Of a stretch of DNA of 64,000 nucleotides, positions 4,330-61,300 are shown piece after piece. The DNA comes from Ischnura elegans (Eukaryota > Arthropoda > Insecta > Odonata > Coenagrionidae). Position 1 is the first letter of the stretch. Each line of letters begins with the position of its first letter. The notes under the pieces are model-generated. The model was not told the DNA's origin. It did no database searches and saw only the letters and a list, made by a program, of their open reading frames with translations. Position numbers and translations under genes: made by a program. Where the stretch lies: assembly GCF_921293095.1 (NCBI RefSeq), contig NC_060253.1, positions 75,181,992 to 75,245,991 on the forward strand. Reading direction: 5' to 3'.

Positions 4330-4920
4330 GGACAGAGCGCTTATACACCCTCTTTTGTTCGGTGCCCTGCACTGCCGCTCACTTCGAGTTCCGCTTAAAC
4401 GGGCCGATCAAAACACGGAATTCCGTGACACCGCCCTCGTCCGCAAAACGTGGCTCATCCTCGTAGTACGCACTTCGCGGACCGCAACCGTTCCTACTCC
4501 CATTTAACCCTCACCCAACACCATTAGACCCCTCATACGCAAGCGTAGGCCTAGAGAGAGGAAGAGAGGGAGCGAACCCTGCAAGATAGAGGTCACCTCT
4601 CCACTCCTTCCACGAGACCTCCACTCTCGCCCTCGACAGAGGGATGGAGAGAGGGGGGATCGAAGCGAGAAAGCGACAGGGAGATGTTCGCCAACAGACT
4701 TCCCGCCAATCGGTGCATGCGCACTGAAAAGCAGCGTGGGCATTCGATTCGGCCTACGTGCAGGCGAAGAACACGGGCAGGGAGGCCGCCGCATCGAAAC
4801 ATCGAGTGCTCGACATTCCGATACGCGGACACGTAGCCAGAAAGTCGTATTACGGGCTGGGGAACTATCATGGCGTAATTTGTCACAAATGATGTTACTC
4901 CTTAGGTAACCATAATCCAA
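4330..4920. other. GC- and CpG-rich block with no supported gene
   Basis: This stands out from AT-rich surroundings and is open in overlapping minus frames, but the peptides are low-complexity Arg/Ser/Pro and no splice context supports them. Other GC-rich patches are at about 1960-2110, 5530-5780, 17380-17740, 22390-22580 and 24830-25080. Any could be a promoter of a gene outside the window or simply old repeat DNA. Confidence 0.3.
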
Positions 4921-7900
4921 TCAAGAATTTCGATTAAGGTGAGGTAGAGGCACCGAATACATTCTCCCTTACCCTTAAAATGAAATAATCTGCACATATT
5001 TATTACAAAGCTGGTATTTTTTATGGCAATATGAAAACATTTTAAATGTTCACAAATATTTCTGTCATTTACTCAAGGGATGATAATATTTCAGGGAAAA
5101 AAATTGAGACCTCCAAGACTGTGGTGAATCACCCTTTGACCCGCAACCAGTAACAATTTGCCCAAATTAATCATCGTGAGTGTGATTATGACATTAAAAA
5201 CTGAACTTACGACCGCAAATGCCTTCATGTAGCATGCAGTTTATGAATTAGCGCTGGTTTTAGCAAGTGAAACGTTTGGGTGAATATATTCATTTGGTGA
5301 AAATTAAGAAAAAACTACTCATAATTAATACAATTCAAAAAAAATTAAACGCGGTAATATTTCATGAGTTGATACAAGAATAATATGGCTCCGCGCCATT
5401 ATAATAAAATTAGAGCGATGCTGTGTATTTTCAAAACATCATACAAAGGCTCTACTGTCACACATTTAGAGGAATCGAAAATAAAACATCGATGACATCG
5501 ATACAGCAATACGGTATCGCTGGAGAAGAGAACTTGCTGGATCCCAGAGCAGGAAGGCGGGAGGGAGAGGAGGGGATAAGAGGGGACCCCTTCTGCACGA
5601 TGAATGCCCGGACCAGCCGCCGCACACCGAAAACCACGCCAAAACGGCCAGGGTGGGTTAGGGGAGGACGTGGAGAGGGAAGGGGGAGTGAGGAACGCCC
5701 TTAGGACGTCACGTGCCCAAACACGAGACCCCCAAAGCCCTCCCAGTCACATCATCGACCCGCAGCTTCGATGAGCGCATTATATGGACGTCCACAAAGG
5801 GTTGAATGTTAACTGACAACTGTTGTGAGATGACAACTAACCCAACGCCTCCAAAAACCATTTACAGACATGTGCCACGAGTGAGATGAAAATTCTTTAA
5901 ACTGAAGTGGATTTTCACGAGTCCAAAATCTATATTTTGGAGGACAAATTTGCCCTTCATTATTTCTAAATAATGCATACGACGAATGATAGAATTACTT
6001 CTAGTAAATACTATTGATTTAAAGATTCAATGTTGCTGGCTTAACTTTGTGGATCATCGTCAAGTTTAATTGGAGTAATGACGACTCAGTAAGTCTCCAC
6101 ACAAAGATTAACTAACCCAACCGGTTTCGAAAGTTACATTGTTATTCTCAATGACACAACTCTTGTTGCATTTATGTTGATTGGGAGTTGTACGCTTAAG
6201 AAATACACTGTTGAAACAAGATAGAAACCATTCGAAATGCTGTGTGGAAAATTACAAAATTGTTATCACTCGCATAAATATTCCTGTTGAAGTTTCTCCA
6301 TTGGCGAATTAATTTTAAATAAAATTTAAAAAAACTTGCAGTGATGATTTTTACAAGAATTCATAACTGTGAGTACCACAAAAAAGCTGACATTTTCCAA
6401 GTTCTCGTACCGTACATAGGTATCCCGTGAAAAAATAACACTAGAATGGATAGATCGCCTCTTTCTCTATTAGATTAAATAAATAATTTAATCAATAACA
6501 CATTTCATCTGTATTGAGCTAAACATTCCAAATCGATTCCCGAAAAATTTGGATAATTGATTTTTTCTGGAAAAAAATTATTCTTTTATTATATGACATA
6601 GGGCCAGATTAGGACTAAGGTCATACAAAGGTTTTGTGTGAATATTTATTAAAGCACCATTTACCTCACAAGGAATTTGGGTTGACCTTAAGCAGCAAAT
6701 TGATTCACGATTTTTTTCTGTTGTTTAAAGCCACGATCGTCATATAAAAACTACGAAATGTATTAAAAAATATGCAAATATATATAAAACAAATTACTTG
6801 CTTCTTAATGTTTGAATAGCCGAATTATTTGCGACTTTTTTATGAAAATAGTAAACTTTTTATTCGTCGATTTGTAAACAAAGTTCTAATATTTGGTACA
6901 ATTGGGTTGTCTCCTCCTTTATACCCAACCTTTGTTTCCCAATCAAATACCTCCTCTCGCGACCAATAGGGACCCATACGTGAGAAGAAAACTCTAAATG
7001 CCTACGTCGGCGATTAATAGCCGCCCATCGCATTGATTAGTAAATTTTATTCATAAAGGGTGGGATTCCAATCAGAGAAGACAACTTTCACCCAAAATGA
7101 TGAACTGACTTGAGGCAAGAGCGAGTTGAACTGCTTCAACATTCCAGAAGAACGTGAGTTAGAGCCACCGATATCTGTGGGCTGGCAGAAGTGGTCACGC
7201 GATTCAATCACGGGACGTAATCACGCGATACCATCGCGATAGAGTTAGTTACCCCACGTAAAAAAAATCCAAATTTGAAGATCTGACCTTGCGGGAGAGG
7301 TCATCGAGCTTCGGAGATTCAGGTGATAATGTAAAAAGAAGACACATCAATCACTTAGCAGTCACATAACGTTCCAAGTTCCTTTTTGAATGAAATTTTG
7401 GTTCCGCGTTATGTGTGTTGCAACATTGTCAGGCGCTACAACCGAATCCACTGTGACTAAAAACGTGATGTATTTTTCCTTTTGAGACTAGCGTACTTTA
7501 TCCAAAAATGAGTGCATTAAAAAAATTTAAATGATTTTCAAAATTTACTTATTTATTTGATCATATTATTGTATCAAAAATGTTTATGTATATTGTTATA
7601 AAAATATCAACGTACGAGTAACAAATCATTCTTCCCTTTTAAACCTTATCACCTATTTACGGAATTTTTTGAACTAATTCCTATTTTTCTATTACACCTT
7701 GCATTTTTTTCACTCTCACGCAGTCGCGGATAACATGTTTCGAAAACGAATTGAACAAAACAAAGAGTTGTAGGTTCTGAACAAAAAGTTTTTTCAACAA
7801 TCATTCTGAAACCTTTCGGGTTATGTACACAAAATTATATGTAATGCAGTCGCTATTAACCAATCATTAAAATAGGTTCGTAATTACCCAACGGTGGTAA

Positions 7901-11989: not shown

Positions 11990-12028
11990 GCCTACGTTTC
12001 GGACATTATATTTGTCCATCCTCAGGGC
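11990..12028 (-). ncRNA. Hammerhead ribozyme motif, GUA type
   Basis: Minus strand: GCC, CTGAGGA, extra T, stem II GGAC-AAATATAAT-GTCC, GAAA, stem III ACGT, cleavage triplet GTA, GGC closing stem I. The core is intact and GUA is a permitted GUH site. No PLE ORF was found beside it; the surrounding AT-rich sequence (about 11.95-12.25 kb) is probably a solo terminal repeat. Confidence 0.6.
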
Positions 12029-12434
12029 TATAAAAATGATAATGTATGATACAAAATTAGTTAAATACAGGCAATTTTACAGTTGTTATACATTAAAATA
12101 CATGGAAATACATATTCAAAATTTACCTTTAAGTCTGATGTTGTTTTTATTTATTTACAATTTGGTTGCTTGGATTTCTTTCTTTGTTGGTTATGTCATT
12201 TATTAAATTATGATAAATTTTGCTAAGGTAAGTAATGTCTGTTCTTTTATTGCAGCTTTTTTTATTTCTGGATATGTGAGTACCCAACATCTCAAAGTCA
12301 AGAATAAAAATATTTTGTTAAGGATAGCAGGCACCAAGAACATAACAGAACTTTTTCCAGGGGTTGAATAGGACGGGGGTCTAGTGTAAGTTAAATTGTC
12401 AGAAAGTAATAAAATTTCATCGGCGTATAGGCTT

Positions 12435-12562
12435 CAGCTTAGTAAAACCACTTGTCTGTTTCCACGCACTTTTATTTAAACCGACCATGGTTTCGGCAAG
12501 TTGTGCCATTATCAAGGTTAAATAAAAGTGTGTGGAAACAGACAAGTGGTTTTACTAAGCTG
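12435..12562. mobile_element. Foldback element with central hammerhead motif
   Basis: Arms 12435-12482 and 12516-12562 are near-perfect inverted copies (CAGCTTAGTAAAACCACTTG against CAAGTGGTTTTACTAAGCTG at the outer ends). The 33-bp centre holds a hammerhead core. The arms act as a very long stem I. No coding sequence is present. Confidence 0.7.
12479..12519 (-). ncRNA. Hammerhead motif at the centre of the 12.5-kb foldback
   Basis: Minus strand: AACC, TTGATAA, extra T, stem II GGC-ACAACTT-GCC, GAAA, stem III ACC-AT-GGT, GTC, GGTT. The core carries C3U and G8A changes, as in the 55557 copy. The shared TTGATAA suggests one subfamily decayed or inherited the same variant core. Confidence 0.6.
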
Positions 12563-14043
12563 AATATCAAAGATTTCAACCGTATCACGCCGGACACTGT
12601 ATATTTTATGAGTACAAGCTTCGTTATTTAGCGATTTCCTCCAAATTAAAGCAGCAAATTTTTTTTATAAATAAATGTCATTTTATGTGTATAAATAAAT
12701 GTGTAATTTTTTCACAAAGGACCATACACTACCTAAAATTGTATTCAGTCGAATGCACAAATTGTTTTTGGAAGGATGAATAAATGCAACCTTCTCTCAA
12801 CCCCCGTCTACGTGACTGGTAAAAACAAACTTTTCACTCACCCTGTAATAATTAAATTTATATAAACAAGTATCAAAATATATCCCGAGGGAACTCCGCA
12901 CTGAAATCAACCCCTGCTCACTTGAGAGCACCGGCTACAGCGGATTAGCTGGAGAGACGGAGAAGCCATCGGCCGAGTCAGGTTTGGCACGTCACCCCTT
13001 CCGCATCGGGTCACCCCTGGAGAACGACTCGCAGATTCGCCCGGAGATCCAAATGGAATGCCAAACACTTGAATAAAATCTTTATTCGCTGGCTCCTGAC
13101 GTAGAGGCGATTATAGAATGGATATAGAATATAGCGGTGGATTAGGAATGGAAGGTTACGAGGAACGAGTCTATTGAAACTTAAAAATTTAATTAAAATA
13201 TTTATACATTTAAAGTTGTTGAATGGATCGGGGACTTAGGAAGCGTTAAAAGGGTGTACAGTACCGTAAATTCTAACCCATCCAAAGTGCCCCGAAGCAT
13301 GTGGTCGGGGAAAATGTTAACAAAAATATTTGTAAACAAAAAAAACGACAAGGTTAAGGGTACAGAGCATATGGGAAAAACTACTACTATTAAATAAATA
13401 ATGAAAAAACTAATTTAATTCAATTATTATTATTAATTTACTAAACTGAGAAAATGATATTTCAAATAAAGTTCTCATGGAGATTAAACAACTAATTCAC
13501 ACCTCGCTGGAATGCAAAGATACCGAAAACCGCTCTATTATTTACACCTCAATTGAAGTACCTAAAAAACAAATTCATTTTTCACGTATTTAAATCAAAT
13601 CCAGAGTGTTCTATTTTTTCATTCATTCCAGCTCATGCCATGTGCGTCCGCTAGCGTTCCTTTTGAACGAAATGAAATTTAAGCAAAGTATATTTACGCT
13701 AGAGTTTAGACTAATAAATAACTATAAAATTGATCGTAGCAGTATTATAACACACAGCCTCTGTGAATAAGGGAAATTTAAAAAGGAGAGACCAGGGTAA
13801 GCAGTAACCACACGTGAGAAATCCATGGAAACGGGCGGCCATCATGGCGTTCCTTTTCGTCACGTCTCCTGTTCACCCTGGAACCAGAGTAGTGCGGAAA
13901 ATGGTAGGCAGCGTAGAAACGAATGCCTTTTCAAAACATTGTTGGAATTGCTTCCTTAAACAAAATTCAATGACATCATAATAAATAAACACTATCTCTA
14001 AGGCCTACTCATATTAAAATTGAATGTTCTACTGACTTCCGGA

Positions 14044-40504: not shown

Positions 40505-43500
40505 GTAAGTTGTTTGTAAACATGCCTGTGTACTTGAAACATTCTGGTGGCATTTATCTGTGGACTGCTATAATTGTGCCCTTATATATTACTACTACTA
40601 TTGGAAGTAATTTTCCTGACAAAAGAGTGTGTGTGCTAACTGTCCTTTTAAGTTAATTACCGTGAGCAGGTATTTAGATGCTTCAATAAGGTTGGCTTGT
40701 AGTGTCCATCTGCTTGTTGTTGTAAATAGATATTAGATAAGAATACATTTTAGTGAATAACAACATATCCCTTTGCCTTTCAGTAGTTTTAAAAGTCTCC
40801 ACGCTCATCGTTAGAATTAATTCAGTAATAATTTTGTGCTTTACCAAAGGGGCACACAAACTTCGTATTGTACTTTTGTTAAAGTTTTGGCTAATTTTAC
40901 GTCAAAAATTAATTTTCTTTTTCCCGTCTACGCAGTGTGAGCTTTACCGGCAAGGTAAAGCCATTGGCAGCCTATGCTCTGCCATGTGCGTCGATAAGCA
41001 ATTCCAAACCCTGACATGCCACCCTTTCCATGCTGGTAAAGATGCCGTATTTTCTGCTAGTTGGATGATACAAGGTACACCACGCGCAGTTTTCAAAGCT
41101 GCTCGCTTGCCTCTGGATGGAGAAAATGATTACCTCTCAGAAAACAAGGTAAATTCCTAATTGACTCAAATTTCTCATGTCCATTTTATCCAGGTTATGA
41201 TTTGTTATGTTTTCATTTAGCAGATCATATTCTTTATTCCATTTATTCACGACGGAAAAATGTTTTATGTTTCAAAAGGGAAGCCAATCACATTATGAAA
41301 CTCGTGTGATATACATGACTGTGGGAATATTGCACTGATACAGTTCTAGAAATTAATTTGACGTCTATCATGCTTGGCCTGGTTTTTGTTTTTCCCATTA
41401 TGACATATCTTATCAGCTTAAATTGTATTACTTAATGGTATATCATTAGGATGTTTGCAAAATTGACATCCACCAGAGTAATTTTTAGGATACAATACAG
41501 TTTGTGATACTTACAACTTTTTAAGTCTTTGGTGCATCAGTAACACCTAACTAACTATAATCTTTCCTTCAATTCAGAACCTAGGCATGTAGAATCAAAC
41601 AATTTCCCTTGTTGAAAAAAGGGGACAAAAATTTGCCGTTCACTACAACTTTCGGAAAAAACTTAATTCTGGCCTGGGTTTCATATTAAGCCTGAATTAC
41701 ATCCTCATATTCCCATCCCTGCAGGGGCGGATCCAGGATTTTTTTCTGGGAGGGGCACAAGCAAGGCCGTATCCAGGATTTTGTTCTGGGTGGGGCACAA
41801 GGATACCTCGTAATACAAAACGAACGCACTGATAATGGGACCGTATTAAAAATCTTGCATATTTTTGAGGGTCTGGGGGGGGCACGTGCCCCCGTGCCCC
41901 CCCCCCTGGATCCGCCTATGCATCCCTGTATGGGTTAGCTGTGGCATTAGCTTCTCAGGGGCTATGAAAATATTAGCCCAAAATATCATTTTCTGAATCT
42001 AAGGTCATTTTTGTTATCCTGTTTTCAATCATTGTTCCCATCCCTTAATATTTGCATGTCAAATTCCGATACAAGCTGAACGTGGCATTAACATCTCTCT
42101 TTGTCGGAGCTATGGGGTCTGATTGACCAAATGATAAAAATTTTCAGCAACAGAGAAAAGGATATGCCAAGCAATGGAAAAAGTGATGAGAATCCCTTTT
42201 ACGGAACGAGACTCAATGTAAGGAAACCAGAAAAACAGAACTTCGATGAAGGAAACTAATGTGCAGTTGTGCCATCAAGGCCTTGTTACACTGTATTTAA
42301 ACACCCATCAGTTAATATGTTTATTATTATCTATTCATTTTATATTTGGGGGTGAGTTTAAATCAAAACTTGAAGCATGTACATTATGGAAGGGCTCCAT
42401 ATTAATAATGAAAGATGCTTTGTTTCTTCCACAAGTTTATAAAAATTTCTGCAATTTACCTACTTAATGGGAAGGTACTGAGTATAATCGTTAGCAAGAC
42501 ATTGTCAGCTACCACGCTGAATGAGGCACGGTTGGTGAAAGGCATACTTCAAGACATACGAGGAGAGCGCCTGAGGTTTGGCAACACTGCTACACGAGCA
42601 GATTCAAGATGTTAACTCGACGGGGGTATGAGAGCTACTCACTGAGGCCACGCCTGCTGTTTGCTGATTGGCCACGGGAAAGTAACGTTTTGAGAAACTT
42701 ATACCACCTCACCTCAACTTGCTTTAGCCACACCAGCTCACCCGCAAAGACGTAATGAACAGAGAATAATACATATGTAAATGAACGGATGAATGCAAAA
42801 CTTCATCACATAACCACCCAACTTGTGAGAGTGCATGAACAGAAAATGGAGACTGTTCTTGATTTGTTCAGCAGTGTTCAGCGAGATGTTGTGGAACATT
42901 TTGCTATGATAAATGAAAATGAAAAACTTTGTGTATGTCCACAGTATTTATGATCGTACGTACGTATTACAGTACTTCAGCGAATCACCTTCGCCACCAT
43001 CATGTACAATGCATTTCTACCTGATGATAGCGAAGGTGATTTGCTGAAACACGTCGTACAATAATAAATACTGCGGACATACACAAAGTTTTTCATTTTC
43101 AATTATCATTCTTGATTTGGTTCATGCATTTGTACATGTTTTGTTCCAGTCCACCAAAATTGTTCATGCATTCATAAATTAAATCCTTAGTGTTTATGAA
43201 CCATGACTAGGCCTTCATACATCATGATGTCAAGTCATGGATGAGTGGTTCTTGGAACTAAGCCTTCAGAGAACCAGTGTTTGAGGAATCACTGTATCTG
43301 GAACAGTTACTTACGTAACAGAAAAAAGTGGAAGCATATTTTGTTCCTCTATTGTACAGTAGTGAGGCTGGAAATTGGTCAATGCTATAATAGTATTTGG
43401 CTTGCATAATTGAATAATTATACCTGTTTACATGGATATGTACTCCTTCGTTCATTCATACTATGCCTTAAGCAGGAACATATATTAATATGAATTCATA

Positions 43501-55391: not shown

Positions 55392-58300
55392 CTGAAAAGG
55401 AATAAAATTATCTACAATTATTCAAAAGAAACAGAAATATAAGTATAGACAACTTCACCTGGGATGGTGCCATAAATTTTCCAGCAAGGCTATGCTAAAT
55501 ACGAGATACGAAGTGAAACACTTTACACTTTCCACATAAAAATTTATTAAACTACAGTCGACATGTTTCACTGCACTGCAGCATTATCAAGACTAAACCA
55601 AGAAATTAATCATACCAATATAAATATAAAATTACACACTCACAAACACTTGAGGAGGTGGGGATGGAAGGAGGGAGGGTTGGGAATTTTAAACTGACCG
55701 TTGGTCTGGAGTGAGGTAGGGGAGGGGGATGGTGACAATTTTCAGGGGCTCGAAGGGTTTTATTTCCCCATTAGCTGAGGGAGGTCAAGGAGCGGAGAAT
55801 GGAAGGGAAAAAAATGGTCATTAGTAATACATAACACTAATAACATCTTCCCTACTAATGGCGGAAAATATGTACAATTGTTCCCAAATGTCAATTTTTT
55901 CCTCTTTTTAAACACATTGCAGCATTTCTGGGACGAAATCAGCTTGGTGTCCATCTTCTAGGAGGTGAGCCGCGAACTGGGATTTCCCTTCCCTGTTTTC
56001 AAAGTCCCTCTTATGCTCTGACCTTAAGACTTCTCCCCATCTATCCAATATAAGACGCCATACAATCTCCAACACTTTAGCCTATAAATTCCACTTTGGT
56101 CCCTAATATCGACAGGGTCTTTTACACTGAGAAACAAATATTTTAGGTTCTTTCTATTGTGGAAGGCTGGTTTGATGCCAAGATGATTTAGAAATTTACC
56201 TACTCTTAGGGAAGCACTACCAATGTAATTTATTTTTTCCAGCGTTGAGCTATCACAGGTTCAAATGAATAAATCTCCCCAAGGGAAATTTCTTTTTTCT
56301 TTTTCGCTACCATGTCTATCATAGCCTCTGTGAAACCATTAGCTGTAGCTATAGATTTTTATGATGGTTAACTCCTTACAGTATTGGAAGTAAGGAAATA
56401 AAACTTTGTAAGGTTCACTTATTTAATTGTAGGCACGACCCAGGTTTCGTAACTTGGTTACATCGTCAGGTGACTGATCTTGCATGCATCATACATTTAT
56501 ACACAAAGTACACAAGTGACAGTGAGGACATCTATCGGAAAGGAAAAGGATTGGTTGAAAGGACGGGGGTGAGGGTTAAACATGGAATGGAATAGGGAGA
56601 GGGGGTAAGGGGGAAAGAGGCAGCCTTGATTTGGGACGAGGGTTTTTCCTGTGAGGATAGGTATCTGACCAGCCAGAGGAGAGCGGGGTTAAAGTGGATG
56701 AGGAGACGAGAGCTAAAGAAGGTGGCGGTGTTGGGGAAGAAAGAGAGGATTAGCAGGGCACATTGAGTTTTCTTAATCACATTAGTCTATGGAAGGTCAT
56801 TGAGTCCGGCTGTGGAAGGTGCTGGTATGGGTTAATGATTTCCCCGAAGGACATGGGTCACTGGGGGAATTTTGGTAAAAGCACTGCATAGTATTCGTTC
56901 CTGGAAATTTTAACAGCACACCGGTGGATAGGCACTTGAAAATTTTAAGGTTGTCACTGTAGGAGTTCATGGGGATGGAAAAGAGAGGGGAGTGGGAGGA
57001 AAGCACTTGCTCGTTGGCAAGGGGGGTGTTGTTCTTTAAATGTTGTATAATCTCCAACGTTTCCAGGGCATCGAGTCTCCACCAGTTTCCTTCTGAGTGT
57101 AGGATCTCCGGCTTGAAATCACTTTCGTGTTTGCCATTTAATAAATGATTGGCGAAGTTGGATTGATCTTTCTTCTTTTTGAAGCAGTTGCGATGCTCAC
57201 TCACTCTGATCTTAACACTTATCTCCGTTCTGCCGATGTATTTCATACCACAATCTTCGCACTTCAGTCAGTAAATTCCACTTCTTCTTTCTGGTGGGAA
57301 ACGATCTTTGCAGTTGGGCAGCAATGTTTTGAGAGTTGAGGGGGTGTAATAGGCAATTCTGTATTTTTCTTTCGGGAAGCAGGAGGTAACAGAATGAGAG
57401 ATTTTTCCTAGGAAGGGAATCCTGCACCAATTTTTCGAGTGTTGATGGGGGAGAGAGAGGACACCATTGATAAGGCCTGTTTCTTCCGCACTTTATTGAG
57501 GATGTTATCAATTACTGCTGGTTGATAGCCATTAACCTTTGCAATGTGCTGAATGATTTTCCATTCCTTATTGTAATTCTGTACATTGAGAGGAATTTTT
57601 ATGAGTCTATTGATTAAAGAATGGAACGCTGCTGTCTTGTGTTGGAAGTAGTGGCATGAGTCCGCGGGAATGGACTTTAACCCAATTTAACCCCACTCTC
57701 CCCTGGCTGGTCAGATACCTATCCTCACAGGAAAAACCCTCGTCCCAAATCAAGGCTGCCTCTTTCCCCCTTACCCCCTCTCCCTATTCCATTCCATGTT
57801 TAACCCTCACCCCCGCCCTTTCAACCAATCCTTTTCCTTTCCGATAGATGTCCTCACTGTCACTTGTGTACTTTGTGTATAAATGTATGATGCATGCAAG
57901 ATCAGTCACCTGACGATGTAACCAAGTTACGAAACCCGGGTCATGCCTACAATTAAATAAGTGAACCTTACAAAGTTTTATTTCCTTTCCGATAGATGTC
58001 CTCACTGTCACTTGTGTATAAATGAATGATGCATGCAAGATCAGTCACCTGACGATGTAACCAAGTTACGAAACCCGGGTCGTGCCCACAATCAAATAAG
58101 TGAACCTTATGCAGTTTTATTTCCTTACTTCCAACATGGAGAGGTTTCACAGAGTAAAGCCTGAAGGTATTAGTTATTCCTTACAGTATTCCTCATTTGT
58201 GAGGGGAATGAAAATAGCTCTGTGGACCATATTGCGGAAGGCTGCTAGCTTCTGACAAGGTGGATTTTTGGATTTGCATGGATCACATGATCAGTGCATG

Positions 58301-61300
58301 TTGGTTTCCAATAAATACCAAACATGTGTTTACCATTCTGAATGGATTTATCAAGTTAAATCAAGAAAATTTATTTTGTCACTGTCCTGGAATTCCACTC
58401 TAAACTTAATGCTTTCATCTAGTGCATTTAACATTTTCAAGAAATCCCTCACTAAGTGTTTGGTTCCGTTCCATAAACAATATATCATACACATAACAGT
58501 ACCAATAGTGCACATTCTTCATGAGGGGGTGATTGCATTGAATTAAATCTTTTTCCAAATTATTCATAAATATTTCAGTTACTAAGGGTGATAGAGGGGA
58601 TCCTATAGCCAATCCATTATCCTGTTGGCAATGGTTACCATTGAACACAAAGAGTAGATTAAAAGTAAAGATTAGAAAAGATCAGATTAAAAATAAACCA
58701 GCAAGACCAAAAGTGATCACTATGAATGAGAAAAATGCTACATGTCTTATAACTTTCCAATGGCTAAAATGAAGTCAACAAGAATCAAGCAGGCTCAAAT
58801 ATAATAATTGCTAACCAACAAGATAAGCTAATATGTTGGTGACACATACAGTCACTTAATTTTACAATCCAATCCACACCAAATAAAAAAATGGCAATAT
58901 TTCAGCCATAATAAGATCTTAGGAACTGAATGAATACATATGAAGGTTACTTACATGTACTAAGACCAGCTTTGTAGCTATCTAAAAGCTTTTGAATCAC
59001 TTGGTCCAAAGACAATACACCTTTGCGCTCTGACACAAATATTCCACGAAGTACACGAGCAAGTTCTGGAAGCCTAGATAATCTTTCAGCACGTTTCTCT
59101 TCAGCTGGAGACATTGTCATAGCCATCATTGCCTTGGCAGCTTGTCTTTCCCTAACCTGTGAATATCCATGCAAAGTCAATGAAGTATTTAGAAACGGGT
59201 CAATCCCCAAAAAACATACATTTTCGACAGGAAAATTTTAAAAAATTAATTTTTGTTTATATAAGAACCAAAATTGTGTAATTACAGTTTTTCAATCATA
59301 CAATCTATTGATGTCAGTTGCAGAGATCATTAGTATCCCCAAACCCCAAACAGAACATGTATAAATGCATGAACCAAATAAGTACAAACTCTTTTATTAT
59401 TTTCTGTTCATGCATTTGCATAACTTCAGTGGCTACACATTAGTGCATATAGTTCAAGTATTTACACATTGCTAAACATGTATTGTAACCAGGCCTAAAT
59501 AAATATTAATAGTAAAAAAATTATTAAAAATACACATAATATAGTAAGTCAATACACCTAGAAGTACATAAATGTATCCTAAATCCTCTTACCTTTTTCA
59601 ACAGAGCTGGAGGAATACCCCTAAGAGCTGGATTTAGGAATGGGACATCAGACGAACTTGAACTTGTAGAGGCAGCACTAGGGGCTTCCTTGTCTTTCCC
59701 GTCAGAGACACTCACTTTTGCTAATGCCCTCTCCATTCTAGTGTTGCAACCGAAAAGGTCACGGGCTTTGTCTGGAGGTCAAACAAAAGGGTTAAATCAA
59801 TGCACAAGATATGAATCCTCACCCTAATTTTGCTTCTACATTGATCTGAAGCCTAGATATTGACCAAGAATTTTTATTTTTATTCCAAAGTTAACCCAAG
59901 GCACAGTGGCACTAAAGTTGAATTTGAATTAAATTTTTTTCTTATATATAAAATTCTCGAGTCACGGTTTTTTGTTTCCAAACTCCTCCGAAATGGCTGG
60001 ACAGATTCCAATGAAATTTGGTGTGTATGTTCAGTAGGACTGAGAATATGTTGTTAACTATTTTTTATTCTTCTCCAGGGCCCATGATGCCCTGGAATGG
60101 GCCCTGAGTCATTTCCATAACAAATATATGTAAAGTTCGTTTTTAATTACCTTTTTCTTTTGCATGTTTAATTGGTCATTGGTGTCAAAAGGTGTTGACT
60201 GGAGGCAAGCATGAAAAAACTGGAACTTGCATTACTTTGAATTTTTTATGAGGGGGAAGTGAGCCCAGGTTCTCGGAATTTTACTTCAGATCAGTTTTGG
60301 TAAATCAGATGTAGCAGAAGCTGTGTAAGTAGCAGGAGGGAAGAAGTCAAGACTAATATTAAATTAGGGAAACAGAGGAAGAGGTGGACGAATTCTGTCA
60401 TTTAGGAAGTAGAGTATTTAGCGATGGATGATGCAAGAAAGAATTTATCAGCAGAATAGCCGAAGTGAAGAGATCATTCTACCGAAAGAAAGAACTACTT
60501 ACAGTGAGAAATTTAAACATAGAAGTAAGGAAGCAATTTACCAGAACTTATCCTTGGAGCATGCTTCTCTACGGAAGTGAGGCATGGACAATGACAGCTG
60601 CGGAAAAATCAAGGTAGGAGATCTTCAAAATGTGGTGCTACAGAGGAATGGTGAGTATCATTGGATTGACCGAGTAAGTTATGAGGAAGTGCTAAGAAGA
60701 GTAGGAGAGAAGAGAAGCCTCATGAAAACATTGATAAGAAGACGGAAAAAGCTTATAGGCTATTTTTCAGACATGATGGCCTGATGAAAAAAATCGTAGA
60801 TGGATAAGTAGATGGCGAGAACGGAAAAGGAAGACCTCGAATGAAATATATGTAAAAAAATAAAGAAAGATGTGGAAGAAAATAAATACTCAGGTGTGAA
60901 AATATTAACTGATAGGAGAATTGAATGGAGAGCTACTTCAAACCAATATTAGGATTATTTACCAGTAATGATCAATTTTGGTTCTCCATTAATAAAACAC
61001 AGTCTAAGGTTATAAGACTCAAAGCAGGTTCCAGACAGTTTCAACACCAATAAATTCATATAAAACACAATTCTCTTACAATTTTGATGGCATGATGTTA
61101 ACACTAGCTTGTTTTAATTGGTCATGAAACTTTAAATTTCTTTCAGAGCACCTTGCCATTAGGGAAGACTGACTCACCAAGGACATCTTTGGCAGACGAA
61201 CATTTATCAGGTGCATCTGGAGGCTGGGGTAACTCTGCTGGCTCAACTTCAGGAAGAATGTCCACTTCAAACAAAGGATGCCACCGGGTCAATTTTTCCC

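Follow-up and report, generated by a model that had tools for sequence, protein, structure and literature searches.

We analyzed a 64,000-nt stretch of the genome of Ischnura elegans (contig NC_060253.1, positions 75,181,992 to 75,245,991; hereafter the window), which carries small hammerhead ribozymes (HHRs) together with remnants of Penelope-like elements (PLEs). A core scan of the window recovered all seven HHR motifs of an earlier reading of the same sequence, hereafter the original prediction. All of them are thus present, but they reduce to five families, and the minus strand carries four of the copies. Named by the position of C3, the plus-strand copies are 57910, 58049 and 43021, and the minus-strand copies are 56469, 12025, 55590 and 12515; 57910, 58049 and 56469 make up a single family (family A). 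Each of the seven has a single T after the core (CUGANGA or UUGAUAA), just ahead of the first stem II pair. Every copy has a hammerhead core (a paired substitute at positions 3 and 8 being allowed), GAAA, and UH at the cleavage site.

Family A consists of two tandem copies on the plus strand and an inverted copy on the minus strand. The core of tandem copy 2 runs from C3 to H17 at 58049..58081, with the inserted T at 58056 and the stem III segment ACCCGGGT. Tandem copy 1 (57910..57942; inserted T at 57917) has a mutated first stem I pair, and the inverted copy (56437..56469; inserted T at 56462) has the stem III segment ACCTGGGT, one change away from a palindrome. Two other minus-strand copies have a TTGATAA core, with U3-A8 as the core pair: 55560..55590, with the inserted T at 55583 and ACATGT as its stem III segment, and 12483..12515, with the inserted T at 12508 and ACCATGGT as its stem III segment, the second of which is flanked by the arms of a 47-nt inverted repeat. 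The two remaining copies are 11993..12025 on the minus strand (CTGAGGA core; inserted T at 12018), with the stem III segment ACGT without a loop and the cleavage triplet GTA, and 43021..43055 on the plus strand (CTGATGA core; inserted T at 43028), with the stem III segment ACACGT and an A-U pair, and not G-C, at the foot of stem II. The window therefore holds two core types, U3-A8 in 55590 and 12515 and C3-G8 (CUGANGA) in the other five copies, and not the one variant class that had been proposed. Stem I is open-ended and at least 3 bp long in six of the seven copies; in 57910 it begins with a mismatch.

We then compared the window with 300 dinucleotide shuffles of itself, using a strict descriptor that demands 4 bp or more in stem II and 3 bp or more in stem I. 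The window gave six matching loci, all of which have a single T inserted, whereas a shuffle gave 0.097 loci on average and never more than 1; 57910 fell outside the six because of its stem I mismatch. The shuffle matches showed no such uniformity, with 9, 8, 8 and 5 of them having 0, 1, 2 and 3 inserted bases, respectively. That the motifs are chance matches might be suggested by Rfam, which stayed below cut-off throughout: there was no match in the window at the gathering threshold, the model Hammerhead_1 (RF00163; gathering score, 34) gave 15.2 bits (E 0.67) at 58046-58084 and 11.7 bits (E 9.8) at 57904-57948, and no hammerhead family was reported for 12440-12560 up to E 10. However, Rfam at gathering likewise reported no hammerhead for eight viral loci in which textbook hammerheads are plainly present, and its silence was therefore not taken as evidence. 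The shuffles, together with genome-wide counts that exceed their reversed-pattern controls about 400-fold, already refute the chance reading, to which we assign practically no probability. The seven motifs of the original prediction are thus real, with a single T in each.

Genome-wide, we searched 1.72 Gb with sequence patterns and used the reversed patterns as controls. The patterns require C11.1, GAAAC and GUC and so miss other hammerheads; one site may be counted twice where two GTC fall in the gap, and copies within a family are not independent. With one base of any kind between the core and G10.1, 19,130 matches were obtained (control, 48), compared with 89 (control, 48) for patterns with no inserted base, which leave out G at 10.2. 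The insertion is thus conserved, as had been claimed. The T found in each window copy did not hold as a genome-wide rule: with the CTGANGA core, T at position 10 gave 9,394 matches (control, 9) and C gave 8,060 (control, 6), or 42% of the insertion matches. A or G accounts by subtraction for about 1,676 (about 9%), an upper limit that may include zero-insertion GG sites. The TTGANAA core behaved similarly, with 9,421 matches with the T insertion (control, 33) and 125 without an insertion (control, 76). When position 10 was left free, C was present in 9 and T in 6 of 15 stem II classes, and N7 used all four bases. The one-base spacing is thus close to obligatory in this genome, the base being a pyrimidine and not specifically T. 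From this constancy of the sequence we infer selection on residue 10.

An excess of compensatory changes in stem II had been set beforehand as a check, and it was found. Among 36 classes differing in stem II, drawn from 65 sites, we scored the pairs that the patterns leave unfixed. Pair 10.2-11.2 was standard in 33 of the 36 classes (shuffle mean, 15.0; maximum, 23), and pair 10.3-11.3 was standard in 34 (mean, 18.3; maximum, 25). Further from the core, pairs 10.4-11.4 and 10.5-11.5 were standard in 26 classes (mean, 17.1; maximum, 22) and 21 classes (mean, 12.1; maximum, 19), respectively. The one-base insertion is common to unrelated stem II families, and the assignment of the motifs to PLE-type hammerheads is supported.

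The stem III of 2 to 4 bp described originally turned out to be misleading. In five of the seven window copies, the short segment from A15.1 to U16.1 is perfectly palindromic (ACGT, ACATGT, ACCATGGT, and ACCCGGGT twice), so that its inner pairs are impossible in a monomer. The segment is palindromic in four of the five window families, 43021 and 56469 being imperfect. Across the stem II classes, 13 of 22 segments of six or eight letters are perfect palindromes; the eight-letter segments alone give 9 of 17, where 1 in 16 would be expected with equal bases and AC..GT fixed. Ten four-letter segments are palindromic by the pattern itself and thus uninformative, and four classes have odd five-letter segments. 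When two copies were cofolded, three of the seven window copies were predicted to form an intermolecular stem III, and only 12515 a complete double hammerhead. A dimer design is supported by sequence, and less so by minimum-energy folding.

The core pair between positions 3 and 8 was counted with genome-wide patterns that have T at position 10. C3-G8 (9,394 matches) and U3-A8 (9,421) were equally frequent, and U3·G8 gave 1,871 matches. A3-U8 was matched 450 times (control, 12), mostly by one family, in which stem I is intact in most of the copies fetched; 22 of the matches listed were other sequences. C3×A8 was matched 621 times (control, 9). A further repeat (CTGAAAATGAATGAACG..., for example at C1:1074416 of the same genome) also fits the C3×A8 pattern and does not look like a hammerhead. 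A purine at position 3 with A8 gave 1,584 matches (control, 27), about half of those listed belonging to one G3·A8 family. An example of this family lies at C1:2221013 of the same genome (core GTGAGAATGGGTAGCGAGTCGGTACCC), amplified despite its non-Watson-Crick core pair. We therefore dropped the idea of a strictly Watson-Crick 3-8 pair, which this family contradicts. G3-C8, known as a laboratory rescue pair, gave 33 matches (control, 22), 15 of those listed being one family. These copies look derived from the G3·A8 family, since their inverted neighbors (loci L290 and L291) read G3·A8.

We next turn to the surroundings of the motifs. Searches with tblastn, using as queries two long PLE open frames from elsewhere in the genome (loci L284 and L285), identified three PLE coding remnants in the window, all on the minus strand. 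The first (56962..57674; up to 89% identity; 153 relatives in the genome) is a C-terminal part with a GIY-YIG-like stretch, the longest open piece of which had no Pfam match; it lies upstream of hammerhead 56469. The second, more decayed (55794..56254; 30-48% identity in pieces), lies upstream of hammerhead 55590, and the third (58177..58651) lies beside the family A copies. Two of the five window families thus have a PLE coding remnant upstream on the same strand, and the position of 56469 and 55590 downstream of such remnants is the arrangement expected of a pseudo-long terminal repeat (pseudo-LTR). In a sample of 61 hammerhead-centered loci from the same genome (L195-L224 and L253-L283), which were the first listed on one contig and are therefore not random, 12 had any PLE match. 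In 9 of them it was located upstream, on the strand of the hammerhead itself; the loci with a match included C10 as well as T10 cases.

Repeats accompany several hammerheads of the window. A tandem duplication on the plus strand (57873..58126; units of 115 nt, 139 nt apart, 94% identity) carries one family A hammerhead per unit. An inverted repeat of the family A unit with 306-nt arms (56392..57987; arms, 56392-56697 and 57682-57987; 98% identity) contains divergent hammerheads. Hammerhead 12515 sits at the apex of a near-perfect inverted repeat with 47-nt arms (12433..12564; arms, 12433-12479 and 12518-12564), which Rfam scored as a generic hairpin, with microRNA families all under cut-off. 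Inverted repeats with 55-nt and 34-nt arms surround hammerhead 43021 (42906..43109). In the 61 loci, neighboring hammerhead-like motifs less than 600 nt apart were mostly head to head (12 in -+, 2 in +- and 2 in ++ orientation); some of the loci overlap, leaving about 7 distinct -+ places, mostly with 28-43 nt or 141-242 nt between the cores. Among the ten longest-looking open frames of the window, Pfam matched only a host FAM69-type piece (40741-41160; PIP49_N, E 8.7e-07), probably a host-gene exon.

Taken together, we consider it quite likely that the motifs are minimal type I hammerheads of PLEs, remnants of pseudo-LTRs from at least five families, that would cut as dimers and in which a pyrimidine at position 10 is tolerated or mildly helpful; this account is built on sequence comparison. 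Two copies, either within one RNA (as in the tandem pair 57910/58049) or in two RNAs, would pair through the palindromic stem III and form a double hammerhead that cuts after H17, and such cutting may trim multi-unit PLE transcripts into units. Residue 10, nearly always a pyrimidine, would be bulged between A9 and stem II, where it may be tolerated or help catalysis mildly, and would be retained, this being the geometry from which PLE hammerheads descend and for which they are selected. In the TTGATAA copies, the 3-8 core pair would persist as U-A.

Several observations weigh against this account. The minimum-energy fold of the dimer lacks the full double hammerhead in six of the seven copies, and family A prefers a hairpin that sequesters the core. 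No PLE coding match lies beside families 12025, 12515 and 43021 with the two tblastn queries, and the sample of 61 loci is not random. The amplification of the G3·A8 family indicates that activity is not required for every amplified copy. C10, detrimental in a viroid hammerhead, nevertheless makes up 42% of the insertion matches here. Finally, the sections of PMC11167929 available to us state for the PLE of Anolis that cleavage mutants left in vitro insertion unchanged, that its ribozyme did not cut without protein, and that no RNA sequencing reads started or ended at the cut site.

The most serious alternative, though one we regard as clearly the less probable, is that the inserted base is a neutral trait inherited from one ancestral PLE hammerhead, with nothing selecting it. 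Position 10 is indeed mixed T/C genome-wide; C10-G10.1 is a CpG, which would decay to T10; and viral contigs frequently carry zero-insertion hammerheads (76 of 123), which are evidently sound. However, stem II has been wholly turned over between classes while the one-base spacing is unchanged, and purines stay rare at position 10 (with the upper limit given above), whereas N7 takes all four bases. A more novel reading is that of a separately evolved, still active dimeric class in which a pyrimidine became fixed between A9 and stem II and buffers swaps of the supposedly near-invariant C3-G8 pair (to U-A, A-U and G-C). U-A accounts for half of the copies counted, A-U for a family of several hundred matches and G-C for few copies; we consider such a class rather unlikely.

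Residue 10 might instead pair with G12 (as C-G or U-G) and lengthen stem II, the element then being a structural signal, for example for PLE protein binding or reverse transcription, and not a ribozyme. Pyrimidines able to pair with G12 are favored, and a U10-G12 pair appears in the predicted monomer folds of 12025 and 12515. Yet the other catalytic positions are fixed, including the unpaired C3, U4, G5 and A6 and the UH of the cleavage site, and positions 3 and 8 are swapped as a pair (9,394 C-G, 9,421 U-A and 450 A-U, against 621 C×A), which a plain hairpin does not need; we therefore find this pairing improbable. Even less probable is the idea that the inserted U is kept because A9-U10-G10.1 forms AUG, the start codon of the PLE frame. 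The frame of the Anolis PLE begins at stem II according to the accessible part of PMC11167929, and ATG stands at that place in six of the seven window copies. However, AUG arises automatically from U10 before the quasi-conserved G10.1, and family A reads ATG TAA. Frames from A9 have a median of 21.5 codons and a maximum of 66 in 38 T10 loci, and they are longer in 18 C10 loci, which read ACG (median, 44.5; maximum, 120). Moreover, no hammerhead lies within roughly 600 bases upstream of two PLE frames (743 and 754 codons), in copies that are possibly 5'-truncated. With short frames, ACG in the C10 loci and ATG TAA in family A, the start-codon reading found no support here.

The motifs of the window, probably dimer-type PLE hammerheads with a known kind of core insertion, are real and mostly known in kind. 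Their value for specialists lies in the genome-wide constancy of the insertion and in the freedom of the 3-8 pair. With at least 28,000 matches in all, the genome offers a natural experiment on tens of thousands of copies, in which hammerhead rules can be studied without mutagenesis: any benefit of residue 10, the reason why C10 is common here despite its harm in a viroid hammerhead and the exchange of the 3-8 pair could all be tested on the copies. The genome further makes clear why PLE copies escape standard hammerhead models. The role of hammerheads in PLEs is described as unsettled in the available portions of PMC11167929 and PMC7761336.

An extra residue at position 10 is not new, being known from other hammerheads. 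The literature already covers residue 10 and the rate-raising effect of U there, as well as the swap to U3-A8 and the dimeric hammerheads of PLEs. The residue 10 result in a viroid is reportedly due to De la Pena & Flores 2001, and the PLE/Terminon hammerheads to Cervera & de la Pena 2014 and to Lunse, Weinberg & Breaker 2017, the last of whom are said to have put them on a scale of 150,000. Judging from the title of the last paper, their alignments likely contain both the position 10 insertion and the U3-A8 core. None of the seven window copies has stem II directly after A9, one base being inserted in each. Insertions of one or two bases at this point are allowed in known hammerhead alignments, according to an extract of PMC10085705, so that the missing junction is a known tolerated deviation and does not exclude the copies from the type I hammerheads.

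The (+) hammerhead of chrysanthemum chlorotic mottle viroid resembles the present copies in having one residue between A9 and G10.1. As far as the excerpted text of PMC3705267 goes, that natural residue is A, its change to U raises the rate 3- to 4-fold, and C10 or G10 is harmful; here, in contrast, C is nearly as common as T. U3-A8 replaces C3-G8 in several natural hammerheads (Perreault et al. 2011, PMC3088659, in part). The present genome differs from these cases in holding 9,421 such matches, as well as A3-U8 (450), G3·A8 and a few G3-C8 copies. For natural G3-C8 hammerheads, a literature search of partly accessible texts gave laboratory mutants only. PLE hammerheads without a proper helix III, in tandem and probably dimeric, are described in the available parts of PMC7761336 and PMC6155905. 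The copies studied here share with these PLE/Terminon minimal type I hammerheads, so far as those parts describe them, the type I order, a monomeric stem III that is tiny or missing, tandem copies, the PLE context and the expected dimer cutting.

We also compared the copies with hammerheads of phages and other viruses, from contigs in IMG/VR, for which stem II had to start with GGC and the site had to be GUC; of 146 nonredundant matches, 123 passed the stem I/III check. Of the two other types sought in viral contigs, none of 11 TTGANAA loci passed the IMG/VR structure threshold, and none of 17 loci with a PLE-style ACATGU stem III was hammerhead-like. One viral contig (L070) carries two Twister-P5 ribozymes (4770-4831 and 6203-6264; above gathering in Rfam) besides a U10 hammerhead, and another (L190) carries four hammerheads sharing one stem II. 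Among the 123 hammerheads, 76 had no insertion at position 10, 40 had T, 5 had G, 2 had C and none had A. Thus, U10 is an option widely used in nature, and hammerheads lacking an insertion are nothing unusual elsewhere, whereas the PLE hammerheads of this genome are fixed for the insertion.
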